Origin: Priestia megaterium NBRC 15308 = ATCC 14581
Lineage (GTDB): Bacteria > Bacillota > Bacilli > Bacillales > Bacillaceae_H
Direction of reading: 5' to 3'
Assembly: GCF_000832985.1 (NCBI RefSeq)
Contig: NZ_CP009920.1
Span: 1,798,001-1,862,000 of the forward strand
DNA: 64,000 nt
The stretch's first letter is position 1, and each line of letters opens with the position of its first letter. The notes beneath the pieces are model-generated. The model worked only from the letters and a program-made list of their open reading frames with translations. It was not told where the DNA came from and searched no databases. Shown piece after piece: positions 12,424 through 57,687 of the stretch. Position numbers and translations under genes: made by a program.

Positions 12424-12619
12424 TGCTCACACCTCTTCTCTTAAAATTTACCATACCATAATTATGATGATGAAACCATCAATTAACATGAAATTTTTCA
12501 CGTATAAGCAGCACTCTAATCCTGTAGGAGTTTTATCGGTATACCTACTGATCTTTTATGCTCCCCATGAGGGTTCGCCGGTTTACCTGGCGTACGATAT
12601 TTAACTACAGGAGGTGGAA

Positions 12620-13261
12620 ATGGTGAAGAAATCTATTCTTGGAATCGCTTTGATAACAAGTATTTTAACCATTGGCTGTCAAAATAAAAATACAGCTGAA
12701 AATGAAAATTTATCACCAAACAACCCAGATGCCATTAATGTAAACGAGCCTAATCATTATTATAATCCAAATAATAATAGCGGCACAAATTATGGATATG
12801 TCCGATACACTAAAAACACAAATGAACAAAATTCCAATATGAACCAAGTAGGAACATTTAATCGAGAAGAAGCAGCCGACAATATTAGTAAACTGAGCAC
12901 CGCTATCCCAAATATTAAACAAGCCGCTACGCTAGTAACGGATAAAGATGTGCTTGTTGCTTATAAAACAGATGCTAAAAATAGGAATAACGCAGCCGAT
13001 CAGGTAAAACGTACAGCTATGTCTGTAGTCCCTCGTTATTATCATGTATACGTCTCAGATAATCCGAAACATATGGACCAAATCGAAAATATCAGTGAAT
13101 TGAATACACAAACAAATGATGCTAGAAAACGAATCGATGCCGTTATTCAACAAATGCTAAAATCTCCCCAAGGGCGTAAAATGAACGGCGGAGAAGATGC
13201 AAATGGAAGAGAGAAAAACGAATTGAATGAACCGATGACGGACAAAGATATGGTAGAATAA
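12620..13261 (+). CDS. yutC: YhcN/YlaJ-family sporulation lipoprotein YutC
   Basis: A 213-residue putative lipoprotein. The N-terminus MVKKSILGIALITSILTIGCQ is a short signal peptide with a lipobox-like LTIGC, so the protein is expected to be lipidated at C22 or a nearby residue. Residues 25-75 are asparagine-rich low-complexity sequence. The rest is a YhcN/YlaJ-like domain (REEAADNISKLSTAIPNIKQAATLVTDKDVLVAY, then YYHVYVSDNPKHM). Family members are often spore-membrane or germination-associated lipoproteins. ACAGGAGGTGG precedes three possible starts (GTG 12614, ATG 12620, GTG 12623); ATG 12620 is chosen. The stop codon is followed two bases later by a dispersed non-coding element that fills the gap to lipA. 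Confidence 0.8.
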   Translation: MVKKSILGIALITSILTIGCQNKNTAENENLSPNNPDAINVNEPNHYYNPNNNSGTNYGYVRYTKNTNEQNSNMNQVGTFNREEAADNISKLSTAIPNIKQAATLVTDKDVLVAYKTDAKNRNNAADQVKRTAMSVVPRYYHVYVSDNPKHMDQIENISELNTQTNDARKRIDAVIQQMLKSPQGRKMNGGEDANGREKNELNEPMTDKDMVE

Positions 13262-13263
13262 AC

Positions 13264-13550
13264 AAAAAAGTTGAGACGTAACTAAAAGAATGTAATCGAA
13301 AGACGAAGAAATGAGACACATGAGCTGAACCGCTTGTGACACCGCAGTTGATTTCCGTGCAAGGCTTCTTTCCGCGGGCGGCCGCTGTTCCCGCAGGAGT
13401 CTTCGCCTTGCCCTCCAATCAACTGCTAGAAGGAACAAAACAGATAAATTTTACGTTAACCGTAACAAAAAAAAACGAACCACTAATCAAACAGTTTGAT
13501 TAGTGGTTCGTTTTTCACTTCGGCTAAACTACTTTTGTTCCAGCCTCTTT
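13264..13550 (-). repeat. dispersed hairpin element, copy 1 (287 bp)
   Basis: Non-coding element that fills the gap between the convergent genes yutC and lipA. It matches copy 3 (56823-57114) along its whole length in inverse orientation. It has outer ends AAAAAAGTTGAGAC and CAGCCTCTTT, a 34-base conserved core at 13390-13423 and a perfect 21-bp hairpin with a CAG loop at 13471-13515. Compared with copy 3 it lacks about 45 bases of the core between two CAG triplets. The hairpin end lies six bases from the lipA stop codon and the other end two bases from the yutC stop codon. The strand given is that of the lipA transcript, which would meet the hairpin first. Confidence 0.85.
13471..13515. terminator. 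21-bp perfect hairpin, terminator of lipA (and yutC)
   Basis: AAAAACGAACCACTAATCAAA pairs perfectly with its complement across a 3-base loop; T-runs end both strands. It lies within element copy 1 and is the only terminator-like structure between the convergent genes. Confidence 0.85.
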
Positions 13551-13555
13551 TTACC

Positions 13556-14455
13556 TTATTTGCTTTCTTGTGCTTTGTTTTTTGCAGCAGCGTTAACTTG
13601 CTCATCTGCATGGTAAGAAGAACGTACAAGAGGACCTGCTTCGACATGGCTGAATCCTTTTGATAATGCAATTTCTTTTAGCTCTTCAAACTCATTTGGA
13701 TGGTAATATTTTTGAACTTTTATGTGCTTTTTAGTTGGCTGTAGATATTGGCCTAGCGTCATAATATCTACATTGTTCGCACGCAAATCATCCATCGTTT
13801 CAATAATTTCTTCTTTTGTTTCTCCTAGACCAAGCATGATACTTGATTTTGTAGGGATATCCGGCTGCATTTCTTTTGCACGGCGAAGGAACTCAAGAGA
13901 ACGCTCATATTTAGCACGAGCACGAACACGAGGCGTAAGGCTGCGTACTGTTTCAATATTATGGTTTAAAATATCAGGACGTGCGTCCATTACAATACGT
14001 AAGTTCTCTTCCACACCGCCCATATCAGAAGGCAATACTTCAATTGTTGTGAATGGATTTTTACGACGAATCGCACGAATTGTTTCAGCTAATACGCTTG
14101 CTCCTCCGTCTTTTAAATCATCGCGAGCTACTACTGTAATAACCGCATGTTTTAAGTTCATTAGCTGAACAGAATCCGCTACGCGTTCTGGCTCTTCTAA
14201 ATCTAATTCTGTTGGTAAACCTGTCTTAACCGCGCAAAAACGACAGGCACGTGTACATACTTCTCCCAAAATCATAAAAGTTGCCGTACGACGAACAGCC
14301 CAACACTCATGAATATTCGGACATCTTGCTTCTTCACAAACTGTATGAAGGTTTTTTTCACGCATCATTTTCTTTAAGCCTGTGTAATTTTCGTTTGTGT
14401 TTAGCTTAATCTTCAGCCACTCGGGTTTGCGGACATGCTCTTCTTTTGTTGCCAT
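13556..14455 (-). CDS. lipA: lipoyl synthase LipA
   Basis: Radical-SAM enzyme that inserts two sulphur atoms into the octanoyl chain on lipoyl domains, including GcvH encoded at 29971. It has 299 residues. The auxiliary 4Fe-4S cluster ligands are C40, C45 and C51 ([12 protein letters not shown]); the radical-SAM cluster ligands are C67, C71 and C74 (CTRACRFC). The C-terminal RSSYHADE carries the conserved arginine-serine ligand region. The start ATG at 14455 has GGTGGAGTTGATAAT upstream. Its stop codon is six bases from element copy 1, whose hairpin is the likely terminator. It needs Fe-S clusters, for which suf, yutI and yutM are available. Confidence 0.97.
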
Positions 14456-28511: not shown

Positions 28512-28620
28512 CTCTCATCTTTCAAAGCGCATAGCTTTGCAGGAATTGGCACCATTTCAGTTAGTCTGACGGTTGCCGGGTTTCACAGGGCTCAGTCCCT
28601 CCACCTCTCTTGATAAGAGT
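28512..28620 (-). ncRNA. SAM-I (S-box) riboswitch aptamer
   Basis: On the minus strand the sequence begins CTCTTATCAAGAGAGGTGGA, then GGGACTGAGCCCTGTGAAACC, CGGCAACC, GGTGCCAATTCCTGC and closes with GATGAGAG. These are the invariant blocks of the S-box aptamer: P1, the kink-turn and the SAM core. P1 pairs CTCTTATC with GATGAGAG. It senses S-adenosylmethionine and, with the terminator at 28464-28498, switches off metNPQ when SAM is plentiful. This is as expected for a methionine importer in Bacillus. Confidence 0.97.
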
Positions 28621-50598: not shown

Positions 50599-51492
50599 TT
50601 ATCTATATAAAGCAGAATGCTGTTCATTCATATAGTGAAGAAATTGCTTAGAGGCATATGAAATATATTTATCTTTTTTTAAAATCAATCCTAAATCCCA
50701 TGAAATTGAAGGGTTAGTAATAGGAACTGCTTTTACAATAGAGGAATCTACTTTTGCCGCAATGGACTGTGGAAAGATAGATACTCCTAAGTTTTCGGCA
50801 ATCATTTCACCAATAAAATCCCATTGAGAGCTCTCGTAAGCTACGTTAGGTTCAAATCCTGCTTGTTGACATGCATGAATAAGCCGGTCGTGAAGCGTAA
50901 AATCTTCATTAAATAAAATAAATTTCTCTTGGGCCAATTCATTAATTTCCACATGAGTTTTAGAGGCTAAAGGATGGGAATTGTGAACATATAAAAGCAT
51001 TTTTTCAGAGATAAAAGGATTACTATCAAAAAGATGTTCATTTACCGGAAGCACCGCTACACCTAAGTCTAACTCTCCTTTTTCTACTGCTTTTTGAACA
51101 CGGTTGGCTCCGTATTCAATAAGTTTAATCGTAATATCTGGATAGAGCTGCTGAAACCCTTTGATAATCTTTGGAAAGAACAGAACTCCAATCAATGGAG
51201 GAATTCCAATTTTAATCATCCCTTTCTTCAGATTCATCACATCATATAAATAAGTCGATAGCTCATCAATGGATGCCATGACTTTTTGTCCTTGCGTATA
51301 CACCACTTCCCCGGCGTCCGTTAAATCAATCTGTCTTGCGGACCGATCAATTAATTCTACTTCCAATTCTTCTTCTAAGTTTTTCACCATTTTGCTCAAG
51401 GTCGGCTGTGAAATATGGAGACTTTGAGATGCTTTAGTAAAGCTCCTTAATTTAGCAACTTCTAAAAAATAATTAAGCTGACGAATATCCAT
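50599..51492 (-). CDS. LysR-family transcriptional regulator
   Basis: A 297-residue LysR regulator. The N-terminal helix-turn-helix is RSFTKASQSLHISQPTLSKMVKNLEEEL, followed by a linker helix and a periplasmic-binding-like effector domain (KIGIPPLIGVLFFPKIIKGF, then LYVHNSHPLAS). AGGAGGAGCAGAG lies before the ATG. Sequence style recalls YwbI/CidR, but I cannot assign an orthologue. It is followed by the CMD gene on the same strand; LysR regulators usually act on divergent genes, and the gene divergent to it (plus strand, 51493 onward) is only a dispersed element, so its target is unclear. Confidence 0.88.
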   Translation of the reverse strand: MDIRQLNYFLEVAKLRSFTKASQSLHISQPTLSKMVKNLEEELEVELIDRSARQIDLTDAGEVVYTQGQKVMASIDELSTYLYDVMNLKKGMIKIGIPPLIGVLFFPKIIKGFQQLYPDITIKLIEYGANRVQKAVEKGELDLGVAVLPVNEHLFDSNPFISEKMLLYVHNSHPLASKTHVEINELAQEKFILFNEDFTLHDRLIHACQQAGFEPNVAYESSQWDFIGEMIAENLGVSIFPQSIAAKVDSSIVKAVPITNPSISWDLGLILKKDKYISYASKQFLHYMNEQHSALYR

Positions 51493-51582
51493 CTCTGCTC
51501 CTCCTATAGATAAAGCGAATATCTTTTATATTATTTATTCATTTTACCTATTAAGTTTTAAGATATACAGCAAAAATATAAA

Positions 51583-51887
51583 GAAGAGATGGAGACATAA
51601 TAAATCAATTCAATCTAAAGAAGGACAAATGGGATAAAGGCGCTAGTATGACCGCTTGTGACACCACTGTTGCTTTCCGTGGGCGGTCGCCGAGCCTCCT
51701 CTTCACTTGCGCTCCTACGGGGTCTCACCTGTTCCGATTTTCCCGCAGGAGTCTACGCCTTGCCCTCCAATCAACACCTAGAAGCTACTACATGCATGAA
51801 ACCTACGCTTACTATAACAACAAAAAATCCGAACGATTCATCGTTCGGATATACCTTCACCTAAAATACTGTTGTCCCGTCCTCTTT
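51583..51887 (-). repeat. dispersed hairpin element, copy 2 (305 bp)
   Basis: The full-length member of the family, in the gap between the LysR gene and azoR. It shares the 34-base core (51742-51775) with one difference from copies 1 and 3, the block CCGCTTGTGACACC with copy 1, and the outer end CCTCTTTT. The core stem CTCCTACGGG (51712-51721) pairs with CCCGCAGGAG (51742-51751), with a G-T pair on the minus strand. The hairpin at 51827-51850 has a different sequence from copies 1 and 3. The hairpin end lies 13 bases from the azoR stop codon, so the azoR transcript meets the hairpin first. Confidence 0.8.
51827..51850 (-). terminator. terminator of azoR, within element copy 2
   Basis: ATCCGAACGAT / ATCGTTCGGAT, a perfect 11-bp stem, followed on the minus strand by T6. 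Confidence 0.8.
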
Positions 51888-51899
51888 TACGAATATGAT

Positions 51900-52526
51900 T
51901 TAAAATGTTTTGGCTGATTGTGCTGCTTGTTCTAGGCCACTTTCAATAATTTCTTGCCCACGATCTGGAAACTGATTATGTCCCTCAATAATAACAGAGT
52001 TCACATCTGTGATTCCAAAGAATTGAAGTACGCTGCCTACATATTTAACGGCCATTTCGACCTCAGCTGCTGGACCTTCTGAATACACTCCGCCTCGTGC
52101 ATTTAATAACATCACTTTTTTATCGCCTAGTAATCCCACCGGACCTTCTGGCGTATACTTAAACGTTTTGCCTGCTTGATTTAAATAATCAAAGTACGTA
52201 TGAAGCACGGCCGGCACAGTAAAATTCCAAAGCGGAAAGGCAATAACAATTTTATCTGCTCTCACAAATTGTTCTAAGTAATAATTAGCAGTTTCTGCTG
52301 CTTTGTTTTCCGCTGCCGTCACTTCTAGCCCTCTTGCTAATTTAAACCGACCGTTTATCATGTCGGCACCTAAATAAGGAAGTTCTTCTTGAAACAAATT
52401 TAGCTCTATTATTTCTTCATCTTGATGCGATTGTTGATAGCTTTCTAAAAATGCATCATATAATTTCACGCTAACCGCTTCACTTGCCGATCTGTCATTT
52501 GCTTTTATAAAAAGAGTATAACTCAT
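51900..52526 (-). CDS. azoR: FMN-dependent NADH-azoreductase AzoR
   Basis: A 208-residue flavodoxin-fold enzyme that reduces azo dyes and quinones with NADH and FMN. The start at 52526 has GGAGGTTTTAGT upstream; the open frame to 52577 is unsupported. Markers are FPLWNFTVPAVLHTYFDYLNQAGKTFKYTPEGPVGLL (family core, FMN contacts) and LLNARGGVYSEGP. In Bacillus such enzymes (AzoR1/2) are induced by thiol-reactive quinones. It is followed by element copy 2. Confidence 0.93.
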   Translation of the reverse strand: MSYTLFIKANDRSASEAVSVKLYDAFLESYQQSHQDEEIIELNLFQEELPYLGADMINGRFKLARGLEVTAAENKAAETANYYLEQFVRADKIVIAFPLWNFTVPAVLHTYFDYLNQAGKTFKYTPEGPVGLLGDKKVMLLNARGGVYSEGPAAEVEMAVKYVGSVLQFFGITDVNSVIIEGHNQFPDRGQEIIESGLEQAAQSAKTF

Positions 52527-52615
52527 ACTAAAACCTCCACTGATTGTTGATAATCTTATTTTATTCGCTTTTTTCATGCGTTTCGAACGACTTTATAATG
52601 AAATACCTTCATACT

Positions 52616-52696
52616 TTAGTCTGAGAAAAATAAAAAGATCCGAACGATTTATCGTTCAGATCTTCCTTCCACTAAACCACTTTTCCCCCAATCTCC
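52616..52696 (-). repeat. shrunken derivative of the hairpin element (copy 4)
   Basis: About 80 bases that keep the hairpin GATCCGAACGAT / ATCGTTCAGATC (52637-52662), sharing CCGAACGAT with copy 2, and an outer end TCTCCTCATTTTT resembling the copy 2 end. A short CTGAGA remnant lies on the left. The GC-rich core is absent. It ends at the stop codon of the sensor kinase gene (TGA, 52697-52699) and separates it from azoR. Confidence 0.55.
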
Positions 52697-54046
52697 TCAT
52701 TTTTCAACGGGAAGGTGAATCACAACTTCAGTTCCTTTTTCTTCTTCACTTTTAATAAAAATCTCGCCTTTATGCTGACGGACAATAGTTTGTGCAATCG
52801 ACAGTCCAAGCCCCGTTCCTCCCGTAGCTCTGCTTCTGGCTTTATCGACTCGATAGAAACGTTCAAAAATATGTGCAAGATCTTCTTTTGGAATGCCAAT
52901 TCCATAGTCTTTTACTTTGATAATGACATCTTCCTGCTTTTTTTCAACGGTCACTTCAATTTTATCCGTACTGTATTTAATTGCATTATCAAGCAAAATA
53001 ATCAATACTTGCTTCATTTTTAGTTCATCCACTTCAATCATAATGGGCGTTTGATCATAATGAAGAACTAATTCTCTTTTATATACCTGCTGCAGCTGCT
53101 TAACGATTTGTTCAAAAATAAGAACAAGATCTGTTTGCTTCAGATCAAGCGTTTGTTCTTTTTCCACACTTGCCAGATCAAGCAGCGTTTCAATCATTTT
53201 TTGCATTTTGGTTGCTTCGGCATAGATAGTGTCGATCGCATCGAGCGTAATTTCTTCATTTTTAATCCCTCTTCTTCTTAATAAATTAGAATAACTGCGA
53301 ATAACGGTTAGAGGGGTTTTTAATTCATGAGAAGCATCGGAAACAAACTGATTTTGCTTTTCAATATTTTCTCGCAAGCGGTCAATCATATGATTAAAGG
53401 TAACGGTCATCCCCTGCAGTTCATCTCTCGTTTCGGTTTGAATAAGGACTTTTTTAGGAACACCGCTCTCTTCGATCTCTTTCATCGTTGTGACCATATT
53501 TTTAATAGGATGCATAATGACGCGTGATAACCATCTTCCTCCTAAAAGAGACAGTAAAATGGACACAAGCGAACAAAAAATCAAAATTGATAGCAAAATA
53601 TCTTTACGGGTTTCAAAACCAGTCAGGAGCTCACCAATCTCAAGCGTTTCAACGACTTGATTATTGACTTTGACAGGCATGCGAATAACCAATACTTGCT
53701 TTTCTCTGATTTTGCGAAGTTTCACCTTTTTTTTCTTTGAAAATTCGGGCTTAATTTTCACCAGATGAGGGTCATTTGATACCTGGTTAATGACCGTAGA
53801 ATTTTCTGAGACTGTTCGGATAAATGAATGGTTGGTCAAATAAAATTTTAGTAACTCGGGCGAGAGCTCCACGGAATGATCTTGCTGACCTTTTTGAATA
53901 ATCTCGCGTGCTTTTTCGAATAAAATGTCCTGTTCCATATTCACGGTAGATTTAGTAAAGGAGAAAAAAACAACGATGTTCATGATTAATAAAATAACCA
54001 CTAGCCATGCTGTTGTCAGTAAATTAATCTTCGTCGTGATCTTCAT
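52697..54046 (-). CDS. sensor histidine kinase
   Basis: A 449-residue membrane sensor kinase. Two membrane segments (residues 9-29, LLTTAWLVVILLIMNIVVFF, and 150-172, ILLSILIFCSLVSILLSLLGG) enclose an extracytoplasmic sensor of about 120 residues. A HAMP linker follows. The phospho-acceptor histidine is in FVSDASHELKTPLTVI, and the ATPase motifs are LIILLDNAIKYST (N), VKDYGIGIPKEDL (G1), FERFYRVDKA (F) and GGTGLGLSIAQ (G2). Closest in style to YkoH-type kinases. It is co-transcribed with the response regulator upstream (overlap of 23 bases). Signal unknown. Confidence 0.9.
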   Translation of the reverse strand: MKITTKINLLTTAWLVVILLIMNIVVFFSFTKSTVNMEQDILFEKAREIIQKGQQDHSVELSPELLKFYLTNHSFIRTVSENSTVINQVSNDPHLVKIKPEFSKKKKVKLRKIREKQVLVIRMPVKVNNQVVETLEIGELLTGFETRKDILLSILIFCSLVSILLSLLGGRWLSRVIMHPIKNMVTTMKEIEESGVPKKVLIQTETRDELQGMTVTFNHMIDRLRENIEKQNQFVSDASHELKTPLTVIRSYSNLLRRRGIKNEEITLDAIDTIYAEATKMQKMIETLLDLASVEKEQTLDLKQTDLVLIFEQIVKQLQQVYKRELVLHYDQTPIMIEVDELKMKQVLIILLDNAIKYSTDKIEVTVEKKQEDVIIKVKDYGIGIPKEDLAHIFERFYRVDKARSRATGGTGLGLSIAQTIVRQHKGEIFIKSEEEKGTEVVIHLPVEK

Positions 54047-54749
54047 GTTTCTCCTCTTTCATCATATATCCTACGCCCCGCACCGTATGAATGAGAGAAG
54101 TAGAAAAACCTTCATCTACTTTTTTTCTTAAGTGGCGAATATACACATCAATTACGTTCGTTTCTCCTTCATATTCATAGCCCCAAACGTTTGTGAGAAT
54201 TCCTTCTCTCGTGACAATTTTATTTTTATTCGTAAGCAAATACACGACTAAATCATACTCTTTCGGTGTCAACGTAATGGATTCATTGTTTCTTAGGACT
54301 TCCCTTGTTTCAAGATTAATGGTCAAATCACTGATCGTTAAGAGCTCCGCTTCAGCTTCTTTCGTTCCTGATGCTTCTACGAGCGAACGATAGCGAATAC
54401 AAGAGCGAACCCGTGCTAACAGTTCTTCAATTTCAAACGGTTTTGTAACATAATCATTAGCCCCTTGGTCTAAGCCCATTACCTTATCCAGCGTCGTATT
54501 TCTGGCAGTTAATAAAATAACTGGCGTAAATACTTCCGCTTTCCGAAGTCTTCTTAACACCTCAATACCACTCAGACTTGGAAGCATCACGTCTAGCAAA
54601 ATGAGGTCATATTGAGCGGATGTTGCCGTCTCTAACCCCGCTTTCCCGTCGTACTCAACATCTACTTCATAATCTTCAAATTCCAATTCAATCTTTAACA
54701 CTTTCGCAATTTGCGCTTCATCTTCCACAATTAAAATTTTCTCTTTCAT
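54024..54749 (-). CDS. OmpR-family response regulator
   Basis: A 241-residue response regulator. The receiver domain has ILIVEDEAQIA (acidic pair), LILLDVMLPSLSG (phospho-aspartate) and VILLTARN, with the conserved lysine in DYVTKPFEIEEL. The C-terminal winged helix is the OmpR type (ITLTPKEYDLVVYLLTNKNKIVTREGIL, then DVYIRHLRKKVDEGF). The start at 54749 has GAGAGGTGTATAA upstream. It is the first gene of the two-gene operon with the sensor kinase. The orthologue in B. subtilis may be YkoG. Its regulon cannot be told from this window. Confidence 0.93.
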   Translation of the reverse strand: MKEKILIVEDEAQIAKVLKIELEFEDYEVDVEYDGKAGLETATSAQYDLILLDVMLPSLSGIEVLRRLRKAEVFTPVILLTARNTTLDKVMGLDQGANDYVTKPFEIEELLARVRSCIRYRSLVEASGTKEAEAELLTISDLTINLETREVLRNNESITLTPKEYDLVVYLLTNKNKIVTREGILTNVWGYEYEGETNVIDVYIRHLRKKVDEGFSTSLIHTVRGVGYMMKEEKHEDHDED

Positions 54750-54797
54750 GTTATACACCTCTCACCACATGTCTTAAGTGAAAGAATAGCTTCTTTA

Positions 54798-54841
54798 GAT
54801 AAAAAAACAACATCTTTTTCAAAAGATGTTTGTTTTTTTAT
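54798..54841 (-). terminator. terminator of the glycosyltransferase gene
   Basis: AAAAAACAACATCTTTT / AAAGATGTTTGTTTTTTT stem with a short loop, in the gap before the response-regulator gene on the minus strand. Confidence 0.8.
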
Positions 54842-54907
54842 CTAAACCCTACTTTTTCAACATACTTGTCTTTTAGCTTATCCTTATTGTTTGTAAACAT
54901 GAATGTT

Positions 54908-56044
54908 TTACGCATGAAGACCAATCGTTTGCTTTTCGCCTAAAATCCAATTGACTACTGCTAAAAGTTCTTCAGGCGTTTGTGCTTCGATTTCTTTATG
55001 GTAAGCAGCAATCGCGTTATATAATGTGCTCATTTTATCAGCATCCTGCAGCACTGCCTGCAGCTGACTTTCTAACGATTGATCCGCCTTTAGTTCTTGA
55101 ACTAAGTTTCGTTCTGTTAAATAGCGTAAATTCACTTCTTCTTGACCTGGTAAAGCAGAATGAACAAAAATCGGTAAATTCTTGCGAAGAGCTTCACTGA
55201 CCGTGATACCACCTGGCTTTGTTACAATAGCATCCACTTGTTCATACAGTTCATTCATTTCTGTGCGTGATGAAATGTACGGAATCGGTGTAACGTGCTG
55301 TAATTCCCATCCCTTGATTTCTTCATATAGCTTTTGATTTTTGCCGCATAAGACAAAGTAATGAAAATGGCTCGCATCTTTTAAATCATTGTAGAAATCC
55401 ATAATATTGCCTAAACCGCTGCTGCCTCCAGCAATTAAAATATTTCGGTTACCAGGATGCTTAAATGTTCTTGTTTTTGTTATTTCTTCATGTACCGGTA
55501 TTCCTGTGACCATCATATTTTGAAGTGGAATTTCACTTTGAGCACGAAGTCCTTTTTTTACTTCTTCACTAGGGAGAAAGTGAAAATCAATCTCTTCTTT
55601 TCCCCATAAATTATTAATAAAGAAATCTGTGTAGACATTTATAATAGGTACATCGCACTTGCCTTTTGCTTTTAATTGACTGAGCAAATAAGAAGGAAAC
55701 CCATGTGTGCATATAATTAAATCCGGATTTTCTTCTTTAACTAAGTGCTCCATTTTTTTTGCGAATACGTGATGATACCATTTGAATGAATGAACAGGCG
55801 GTTCATAAAAGAGATGTTTGTATGCCATATTGTACGTTTCTGGAGCATAACGAATCCATTTCAAATATGTGCCTGTGACCACTTTTTCTAATAGTTCGTT
55901 TGTATAGCTTAATAAATCTATTTTTTTATAACAAATATTTGTTGTTCTTCTTTCCAATATATCCATTAACGCCTCTGCCACTTGATGATGGCCAGAAGGC
56001 ATTTTTAGAAGAGGTAAAAATAAAACCTTTTTCAACTGTTTCAT
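54908..56044 (-). CDS. glycosyltransferase, MGDG synthase/UgtP-like (YkoN type)
   Basis: A 378-residue glycosyltransferase of the GT28/MurG-like group with the N-terminal MGDG-synthase domain (KMPSGHHQVAEALMDIL; the glycine-histidine start is typical) and a C-terminal donor-binding domain (ILIAGGSSGLGNI, TKPGGITVSEALRKNLPIFVHSALPGQEEVN). Relatives add sugar to diacylglycerol or other lipids at the membrane. In B. subtilis ykoN lies near ykoG-ykoH, the same neighbourhood as here. GGAGATGAAACAGT precedes the ATG. Acceptor and sugar are unknown. Confidence 0.85.
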   Translation of the reverse strand: MKQLKKVLFLPLLKMPSGHHQVAEALMDILERRTTNICYKKIDLLSYTNELLEKVVTGTYLKWIRYAPETYNMAYKHLFYEPPVHSFKWYHHVFAKKMEHLVKEENPDLIICTHGFPSYLLSQLKAKGKCDVPIINVYTDFFINNLWGKEEIDFHFLPSEEVKKGLRAQSEIPLQNMMVTGIPVHEEITKTRTFKHPGNRNILIAGGSSGLGNIMDFYNDLKDASHFHYFVLCGKNQKLYEEIKGWELQHVTPIPYISSRTEMNELYEQVDAIVTKPGGITVSEALRKNLPIFVHSALPGQEEVNLRYLTERNLVQELKADQSLESQLQAVLQDADKMSTLYNAIAAYHKEIEAQTPEELLAVVNWILGEKQTIGLHA

Positions 56045-56197
56045 CTCCTATTCTAAAAGCAGTTTCTTCCTCTCCTTTTTATATCATTAAATGCCCTTAA
56101 ATTTCAGATTTTAATTGATTTTTAATGTGAAATTCATCGTTTTTTTAGAGTGTCAATCTAAACTAAGAGTGAAAAGTACTGCATAAGGAGAAAACAA

Positions 56198-56824
56198 ATG
56201 AACCTCAATTACGAAGTATTTCAATGGATTAACTCGTTTGCTGGTAAATCCAGCGCAATGGATTCTGTAATGATTATCATCACGAATAGCGTTCCTTATT
56301 TTATAATGGCTTGTTTGCTTTTGCTGTGGTTTAGCGGAAAAACAGAAAGAACAATTTATCACCGTTATACAGCTTTATACATGTTGTTTACAATTGTACT
56401 TTCTCTATGTATCAACGAAGTCATTCACCTGGTGTATTACCACCCGCGTCCGTTTGTGACTCATCACGTTCATAAGCTGATTCCGCACCCGGCTAATTCA
56501 TCTTTTGTGAGTGATCATTCGATTTTAGTCTTTTCTGCTGCTTGGATTATGTGGTTACGAAAAAACAAATGGAGAAGCATCATTTTTATATGGGCTGTCA
56601 TTTCGGGCCTTTCACGTATTTACGTAGGCGTTCACTATCCAGCAGATGTACTTGGAGGGATGGTGATTGCGGGAGCTATCGGATGCTTTATTATATACGT
56701 TTCAGCTAAAACAACTCCTCTTATTCAGCGATTATTCTGGATTCACGATTTGATTATCAAGCGTATTCCGTTTCTATCTCCCTATACGCATGAACAAATT
56801 AGCAAAAAAAATCATTCAGCTTAA
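56198..56824 (+). CDS. PAP2-family phosphatase, BcrC-like undecaprenyl-diphosphatase
   Basis: A 208-residue membrane phosphatase of the PAP2 family, with five or so membrane segments. The catalytic motifs are YYHPRPF (C1, with histidine in place of the usual lysine at the K-x6-RP position), NSSFVSDHSILVF (C2, SxxSDH) and SGLSRIYVGVHYPADVLGGMV (C3, SRxxxxxH-x3-D). It resembles BcrC, which dephosphorylates undecaprenyl pyrophosphate for cell-wall synthesis and bacitracin resistance. AAGGAGAAAACAA precedes the ATG at 56198. The stop codon TAA overlaps the first two bases of element copy 3. Confidence 0.85.
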   Translation: MNLNYEVFQWINSFAGKSSAMDSVMIIITNSVPYFIMACLLLLWFSGKTERTIYHRYTALYMLFTIVLSLCINEVIHLVYYHPRPFVTHHVHKLIPHPANSSFVSDHSILVFSAAWIMWLRKNKWRSIIFIWAVISGLSRIYVGVHYPADVLGGMVIAGAIGCFIIYVSAKTTPLIQRLFWIHDLIIKRIPFLSPYTHEQISKKNHSA

Positions 56825-57114
56825 AGAGGCTGAAGCAAAAATAGTTTAGCTGAAATGAAAAACGAACCACTAATCAAACAGTTTGATTAGCGGTTCGTTT
56901 TTTTTGTTATGGTGAACGTAGATTTTATCCGTTTCGTTCCTTCCAGCAGTTGATTGGAGGGCAAGGCGAAGACTCCTGCGGGAACAGTGGAACAGATGAA
57001 ACCCGCAGGAGCGCAAGCGACGAGGAGGCTCAGCGGCCGAGCAAGCAGTCCAGATTATATATCCAGATTGTTCGCCTTTGGATGAGATTCATTTCGTTAC
57101 GTCTCAGCCTCTTT
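56823..57114 (+). repeat. dispersed hairpin element, copy 3 (292 bp)
   Basis: An element bounded by a perfect 11-bp terminal inverted repeat: AAAGAGGCTGA at 56823-56833 and TCAGCCTCTTT at 57104-57114. It contains the hairpin at 56858-56902 and the 34-base core at 56949-56982. A further core stem CTCCTGCGGG (56973-56982) pairs with CCCGCAGGAG (57002-57011). It overlaps the stop codon of the PAP2 gene. Copy 1 is its close relative in reverse orientation. No open frame inside has a ribosome site. Confidence 0.88.
56858..56902. terminator. hairpin of element copy 3, terminator of the PAP2 gene
   Basis: AAAAACGAACCACTAATCAAA / TTTGATTAGCGGTTCGTTTTT, 20 of 21 pairs with a CAG loop and a T-run; nearly identical to the hairpin of copy 1. 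Confidence 0.88.
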
Positions 57115-57147
57115 CTTTATTATTTTTAAAAAACAACGTTCACTTTC

Positions 57148-57220
57148 TTGACTTTCACTTTTATTTATTTTATATTATTTGATGTATCAAACATTGATGT
57201 ATCAAATATTAATTCATCAA
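57148..57220 (+). promoter_or_regulatory. marR promoter with three phased operators
   Basis: Promoter -35 TTGACT (57148-57153), 17-base spacer, -10 TATATT (57171-57176). Directly downstream lie three 12-base sites at exact 15-bp steps: TTGATGTATCAA at 57179 and 57194 (identical, perfect palindromes) and TTAATTCATCAA at 57209 (9 of 12). They are the likely binding sites of the MarR product encoded next, giving autorepression. Confidence 0.75.
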
Positions 57221-57249
57221 TAAATATCATAGAAAAAGGAGCGACTTTC

Positions 57250-57687
57250 TTGTCACATTCATGTTCTGAAAAAGCAAATGTTCTGTATGCTCTGCAAGAA
57301 GTTAATAAACAAATTAATCAAAAGTTTGAGCATTGTACCGGTGTTAGCCAATCACGTCTTGATATTTTACATCAGCTTTATGAAACAGGTGAAATGAGTC
57401 AAAAGGCGCTTCAACAGCAAGTAAACATTGACAATGCTGCAATTACAAGGCATTTAAAGCAACTCGAAGAAAGAGATGTTGTATCACGCCGTAAAAACCC
57501 TGATGACAACCGCGTAACATTTGTAAAGCTTACGAAAAGCGGACATGAAAAAATCGGTGCATTTCGAAACGAAAAAGCTCGCTTTATTGATGAAGCATTT
57601 AAAGATTTCAGCGAAGAAGAACAGCTGCTGCTTTCCAAAATGCTTGAGCGTTTAAAAGTAAACATTTCGGCCATTGAACGGTCATAA
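57250..57687 (+). CDS. MarR-family regulator (YdgJ-like)
   Basis: A 145-residue MarR repressor. The start is TTG 57250 behind AAAAGGAGCGACTTTC; the open frame to 57148 reads through the promoter and operators, so it is rejected. The winged helix is MSQKALQQQVNIDNAAITRHLKQLEERDVVSRRKNPDDNRVTFVKLT. It starts MSHSCSEKANVLYALQEV, with one cysteine near residue 5, which in some MarR proteins senses oxidants. It precedes the nitroreductase gene by 27 bases, so a co-transcribed pair, as ydgJ-ydgI in B. subtilis. Confidence 0.88.
   Translation: MSHSCSEKANVLYALQEVNKQINQKFEHCTGVSQSRLDILHQLYETGEMSQKALQQQVNIDNAAITRHLKQLEERDVVSRRKNPDDNRVTFVKLTKSGHEKIGAFRNEKARFIDEAFKDFSEEEQLLLSKMLERLKVNISAIERS

Follow-up and report, generated by a model that had tools for sequence, protein, structure and literature searches.

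A gene-free repeat of Priestia megaterium, most likely a non-autonomous IS1182-type element that replaces host terminators and brings its own

The gene-free repeat that is scattered through the genome of Priestia megaterium NBRC 15308 is most likely, with a probability of roughly 0.87, a non-autonomous miniature element (MITE) of IS1182 type that replaces the terminator stem-loop of a host gene and brings its own terminator with it. At the sampled sites the element exactly replaces native hairpins, its ends are shared with IS1182-type insertion sequences (IS), its hairpin is conserved and its placement relative to genes is polar.

The window, a stretch of 64,000 nucleotides of this genome, contains three copies of the element and one decayed derivative. 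The copy at 56823..57114 (+ strand) lies downstream of a PAP2 gene (56198-56824) and matches the nhmmer profile over its whole length, with about 42 bp of the inner core missing. Alignment and the ends of IS1182-family IS define its left terminal inverted repeat AAAGAGGCTGAAGCAA (56823..56838, +), the outer A bases of which merge with the A-tract of the target and with the stop codon. This is followed by a terminator-like hairpin and T-tract recognised in the sequence (56858..56902, +), by the GC-rich inverted core CTCCTGCGGG..CCCGCAGGAG (56973..57011, +), which is common to many Bacillales genera, and by the right terminal inverted repeat GTTACGTCTCAGCCTCTTT (57096..57114, +), defined by sequence, alignment and IS ends. 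The copy at 51583..51887 (-) is found at the stop of an azoR-like gene (51900-52577, -) and its sequence includes a hairpin of the CCGAACGA type (51827..51850, -). The third copy (13264..13550, -) lies between two convergent genes, lipA (13556-14455, -) and the YhcN/YlaJ gene at 12614-13261 (+), and fills the gap; its hairpin (13471..13515, -) has an A-tract on one side and a T-tract on the other in the sequence and, given these flanks, could act in both directions. The left-half derivative at 52616..52696 (-), with a left end and a hairpin at 52636-52663, adjoins the stop of a histidine kinase gene (52697-54046, -) and is a weak left-end match to the profile (E 2e-4) that stands outside the census described below.

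An earlier, sequence-only reading of the window had described three full elements with outer inverted ends, a GC-rich core and a strong hairpin near one end, and had placed these and the derivative beside lipA, azoR, PAP2 and sensor kinase genes. The profile recovers all three (13264-13550, -; 51583-51887, -; 56823-57114, +) almost to the base with each of these parts present, and Pfam identifies the genes as lipoyl synthase, a flavodoxin-fold (azoR-like) protein, PAP2 and a histidine kinase. The size then given was about 290 bp; the window copies are shortened, and a complete copy measures about 334 bp. Rfam gave no match to the element at gathering score in the whole window, with below-threshold matches only within 51300-57400; the single gathering-score match in the window is a SAM riboswitch (RF00162) at 28512-28619. 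One full copy used as a query found no match among phage records.

The genome, 5.75 Mb in size, belongs to the Priestia megaterium group, and its lipA matches that of a P. megaterium CACC119 record at 889/900 positions. In it a profile of 31 copies (nhmmer) reveals at least 121 members of the family: 56 full copies, 27 internally deleted copies, 5 others, and partial copies that comprise 29 left halves and 4 right parts; this is a lower bound, as 100 of the 103 merged stretches made from 124 candidate places were scanned and 3 candidate places were left out. Searching the genome by BLAST with the 56823-57114 copy, as had been proposed, likewise yields at least 77 pieces, with 40 of the 132 candidates scored. 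Identity to the query is 72-91% at the 40 main places apart from its own, and many of the copies are therefore old. The left-end pattern occurs at 114 genomic sites (about 100 of them listed) versus 1 in the control, and the core pattern at 63 sites versus 0 for the reversed control. In the alignment of copies, a complete element consists in order of the left end AAAGAGGCTGGGACAAAA, the hairpin and T-tract, the GC-rich inverted core and the right end TTATGTCTCAACCTCTTT. The element is thus short, present in many copies and bounded by terminal inverted repeats, as MITEs are, and is too short to encode a transposase, which bears out the earlier suggestion of a MITE-like family without a transposase gene.

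The hairpin sits about 35 bp inside the left end. Of the 117 copies in which that end is present, 114 have a T-tract and a hairpin whose stability is -8 kcal/mol or better (median dG -21). Two sequence types at least are represented, CGAACCA.. and CCGAACGA.., with pairing possible in both. Stable, placed downstream of a gene and followed by a T-tract, the hairpin is by its sequence a predicted intrinsic terminator, and it would probably terminate transcription in vivo.

The position of the element relative to genes is equally regular. The polarity noticed at four of four window sites extends to the genome, where 111 of the 120 copies (of 121) with a called gene on both sides have their hairpin-side gene pointing into them, the four copies without a hairpin end being counted by side and the genes being called by a custom codon-usage script rather than taken from annotation (for IS loci, with models made from few sequences or from this genome). 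Distance and orientation relative to the stop codon are also consistent: the stop lies a median of 5 bp from the left end (n=108) and no more than 15 bp from it in 84 of 108 cases, while in tandem gaps the hairpin faces the stop 76 times and is reversed 6 times (p = 1.6e-16). The other gaps that hold an element comprise 35 convergent and 3 divergent ones. Among convergent copies that reach both ends of the profile, both stops lie within 30 bp in 20 of 27, so that the element fills the whole gap. With the majority strand defined for each 400-kb bin, the hairpin in tandem gaps faces the stop of 66 of 71 majority-strand genes and of 10 of 11 minority-strand genes; because the bias is present in both (66:5 and 10:1), it follows the gene and not replication, and replication direction is unsupported as its cause.

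A comparison with empty sites, run in congeners, is revealing of what the element displaces. For this comparison 36 loci were drawn at random, with a seed, from the 56 eligible copies, defined as full or internally deleted copies outside the window with a gene reading in at a distance of -5 to 16 bp. The 36 loci gave 80 orthologous stretches (35 in genome G003, 35 in G007, 10 hand-picked in G009 and none in G001). The element occupies 33 of these and is apparently flipped in 1 more, and the other 46 are empty. In the empty alleles, which cover 30 of the 36 loci, the flanks align and a single ordinary native hairpin is found exactly at the position of the element; the remaining 6 loci of the sample showed no empty allele. 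More specifically, 19-43 nt (median 27) stand in place of the element, and every one of the 46 empty alleles, a non-independent set from 30 loci, has a better fold than its mononucleotide shuffles (p<0.01), in contrast to neighbouring control segments in the same test (0 of 46 at p<0.01, 3 of 46 at p<0.05). The median MFE of the native hairpins is -18.8 and a longest T-run of at least four is present in 43 of the 46, as counted directly; a separate T-tract test was passed by 24 of 46, the fold having drawn the T-tract into the stem, and the direct count was used instead. The same native hairpin is often common to several congeners, and at such loci the element is thus the derived state.

The window sites were compared with congeners as well. 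The PAP2 site of G003 is a gap of 25 nt with one native hairpin, GCGCC..GGCGC with T6, and at the kinase site (52616-52696) a native GCCGCC..GGCGGC hairpin is found in G001, G003, G007 and G009. At the lipA site an ordinary two-way terminator, AAAAAAGGTGATGAGCGTATCATCACCTTTTTT, replaces the element in G003, G007 holds the left-half form, and the element is also absent from five more distant congeners. The azoR site offered no empty allele: G001 and G009 have a left-half copy, G003 has a full copy and G007 was unalignable. Three further observations concern these sites and their relatives. Between the azoR-like and kinase genes, G009 has an extra 0.8 kb or so with an apparent gene start, beside the native terminator (L438, L441). 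At the PAP2 site (L447, L449, L450), the element of G007 is of the CCGAACGA type and those of this genome, G001 and G009 are of the CGAACCA type, which indicates either independent insertions at one terminator or an exchange of hairpins. A convergent site in G007 (L200, G007:C1:1480186-1481730) begins with the right end of the element and by eye has the orientation opposite to that in this genome.

The boundaries of the element carry further traces. A target site duplication of at least 4 bp was found in 0 of 73 copies, which is expected for the proposed parent family, since IS1272 likewise has none. The bases just outside the two ends show inverted complementarity with a mean run of 3.19, compared with 2.53 in shuffled flanks (0 of 2000 shuffles), an excess that is singly significant only at the first base (p = 0.003) and marginal at the seventh. 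Such complementarity above the shuffled level is what would be expected if the lost hairpin had left its outer stem pairs behind.

The sequence-only reading did not recognise the family, and its ends now tie it to IS1182-family IS: ends of the form GAG(G/A)CTGGGACA, like those of the element, were found, in other genomes of the order, at 7 of the 34 IS1182-family loci whose termini were inspected (L395, L396, L399, L404-L407; plasmid copy L413), by a looser inverted-repeat scan where two other such scans had missed them. These IS are 1.82-1.97 kb long, encode a transposase of more than 500 aa and resemble the element only over about 17 bp at each end. Four of the 7 also share the left/right asymmetry of the element, with ACAAAA at the end where the transposase starts and ACATAA at the other, and the remaining 3 have like ends on both sides and no asymmetry. 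The size of the element, its inverted ends and the replacement signature likewise point to IS1182 rather than to REP/RAYT (TnpA_REP) elements, which are short palindromes with a GTAG/CGTC tag that go with an HUH transposase. An IS1182-family search (NF033551) gave matches in 101 of 150 genomes of the order, but no such transposase in this genome, G001, G003 or G009 (E<=0.001), so that mobilisation in trans is a step that we infer.

The same IS, which often lie at stop codons, also carry terminator-like hairpins. A strong hairpin and T-tract just inside both ends, with dG of -19 to -38, was found in 9 of 9 IS with GAGxxxGGGACA ends, a set that includes two plasmid copies (from Terribacillus and Cytobacillus) and is not independent, as L406/L412 and L405/L413 share hairpins; of 108 control segments from within the transposase genes of these nine, only 2 are as stable as -19. 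Each end hairpin reads in the direction of transcription entering from its side. The survey tried 18 IS and found ends in 15, the other 6 of which have a weaker left hairpin. In contrast to these IS, the element has the left hairpin only, and no gene.

Two IS1182-related loci stand apart. Genome G008 has a broken IS1182-family transposase gene flanked by two opposed copies of the core, the whole bounded by the outer ends of the element (L224:1095-2722); this is a composite of nested insertions, and the remnant was rejected as an autonomous partner. In genome G013 (L255, L259, L261), IS1182-family IS with ends GAGGGCACTGAAAAA are inserted inside terminator-like hairpins with the arms kept on both sides, and thus not all IS1182 members replace the stem.

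Precedent for such replacement comes from staphylococci, where IS1272/TnSha1 of the IS1182 family is described as replacing or partly deleting a target stem-loop without target duplication and without preference for target sequence (PMC5678879, PMC4923244). Among seven TnSha1 targets, hairpins A to E were confirmed as terminators by RNA-seq mapping (PMC4923244). The element resembles IS1272/TnSha1 in replacing the target stem-loop without duplication and differs from these transposase-bearing elements in being about 334 bp long, gene-free, present in at least 121 copies, strongly oriented and equipped with its own terminator-like hairpin.

The mechanism that we propose would begin with an IS1182-family transposase, presumably of the GAGGCTGGGACA subgroup, that recognises the ends of the element and moves it in trans; the candidate mobiliser gene would be that of an IS1182-family IS with AGAGGCTGGGACA ends. 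The target would be chosen by structure, as a stem-loop, here the intrinsic terminator that closely follows a stop codon. This hairpin would be lost and the element would come to sit between the host A-tract and T-tract without target duplication, and in the favoured orientation the upstream gene would regain a terminator from the carried hairpin.

What sets the orientation can be considered separately. If the element destroys a terminator, the copies best tolerated should be those whose own hairpin adjoins the stop, whereas orientation should not matter to IS that have hairpins at both ends. IS with two end hairpins are in fact oriented 7:5 in tandem gaps, against 76:6 for the element (Fisher p = 0.0044), or 5:5 without two IS of another end type (Fisher p = 0.0018), in a sample of 12 of 35 IS copies from few other genomes, 8 copies being without a called neighbour on one side. 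This small sample fits compensation, and it is probably selection rather than the enzyme that sets the orientation. It is possible, if distinctly less probable, that the same element owes its bias to the chemistry of transposition, such as transcription-coupled opening of the target, and not to selection for termination; the great strength of the bias and its allegiance to the gene even on the minority strand would suit such chemistry, but the near-even orientation of the IS with hairpins inside both ends (n = 12) speaks against it, as do the TnSha1 insertions reported in both orientations at one target (PMC4923244). Terminator use under selection and insertion at gene ends had both been offered earlier as causes; both may apply, but the replacement of a native terminator stem-loop, seen at 30 of the 36 loci, had been missed. 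Target choice would put the element at gene ends, and the carried hairpin together with selection is the likely reason for its orientation.

An improbable alternative is that no transposase is involved and that ectopic gene conversion or template switching at a terminator hairpin, guided by microhomology of the A-tract and T-tract, copies the element in from another locus during replication or break repair. In its favour, the junctions lie within A- and T-tracts, the search of this genome found no IS1182 transposase and one site can hold different forms of the element in different species. Against it, the ends of the element match those of transposase-coding IS, a gene reads in within 40 bp of an end in 24 of 35 copies of such IS, and IS1272 is described as replacing stem-loops (PMC5678879, PMC4923244). 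Less probable still is a host-useful, non-selfish terminator cassette kept and spread by selection on termination, which the strong polarity and the retention of the hairpin would favour, but the replaced native hairpins were already stable, the inverted ends and GC core are unneeded for termination and presence differs between close species. A non-autonomous IS1182-type element remains the preferred reading.

The distribution of the parts of the element extends well beyond Priestia. The end motif, with at most one mismatch, occurs in 98 of 150 genomes of the order and at up to 133 sites in one of them, where controls gave 0 or 1 per strand. Among the matches listed, the GC core is found in many named Bacillales genera, sometimes within other inverted ends, and may be a conserved module of its own. 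By eye, loci of Sporosarcina sp. P2 and Rossellomorea aquimaris have the same whole architecture, every third of at least 76 core matches having been inspected. A core of the form GACTCCTGCGGG..CCCCGCAGGAGC (L262-L341, e.g. L280, L338) recurs inside different outer ends, such as AGGCTGTTTTCTAAAAGATTGTTG..AGTTTACGAAAACAGCCT.

Other high-copy intergenic repeats invite comparison, here by description only. The bcr1 repeat of the Bacillus cereus group, about 155 bp long, is like the element a high-copy intergenic repeat in a Bacillus relative, but has a target site duplication. The pneumococcal SPRITE, BOX and RUP repeats are, like the element, short, gene-free and intergenic, and SPRITE is terminator-like; in the accessible part of their description no replacement of native terminators was found (PMC10969869).

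Stem-loop-replacing chemistry is already known from IS1272. A MITE that both carries and replaces terminators, and the scale on which it does so, were not found in the open-access literature searched. We lean towards a broader view, in which a class of Bacillales elements, IS and MITEs together, would live by destroying host terminators and repaying each with a terminator inside its own end. Autonomous members would carry terminators at both ends and insert either way, the MITE would carry one and survive almost only with that end at the stop, and the class would be a principal driver of 3'-end turnover in the genes of the order.

The terminator swap of the element suggests a way in which a genomic parasite could live at the ends of genes and do little damage. 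It links three subjects that are mostly studied separately: structure-targeted transposition, the intergenic repeats of obscure origin in Bacillaceae and the differences in terminators among closely related species. The matched series of alleles, with native hairpin, full, half and flipped element, provides a natural test of termination and of selection on orientation, and the element offers a ready source of some bacterial 3' UTRs. Provided that the hairpins it carries are functional, more than 100 genes in one genome would end their transcripts in mobile DNA.
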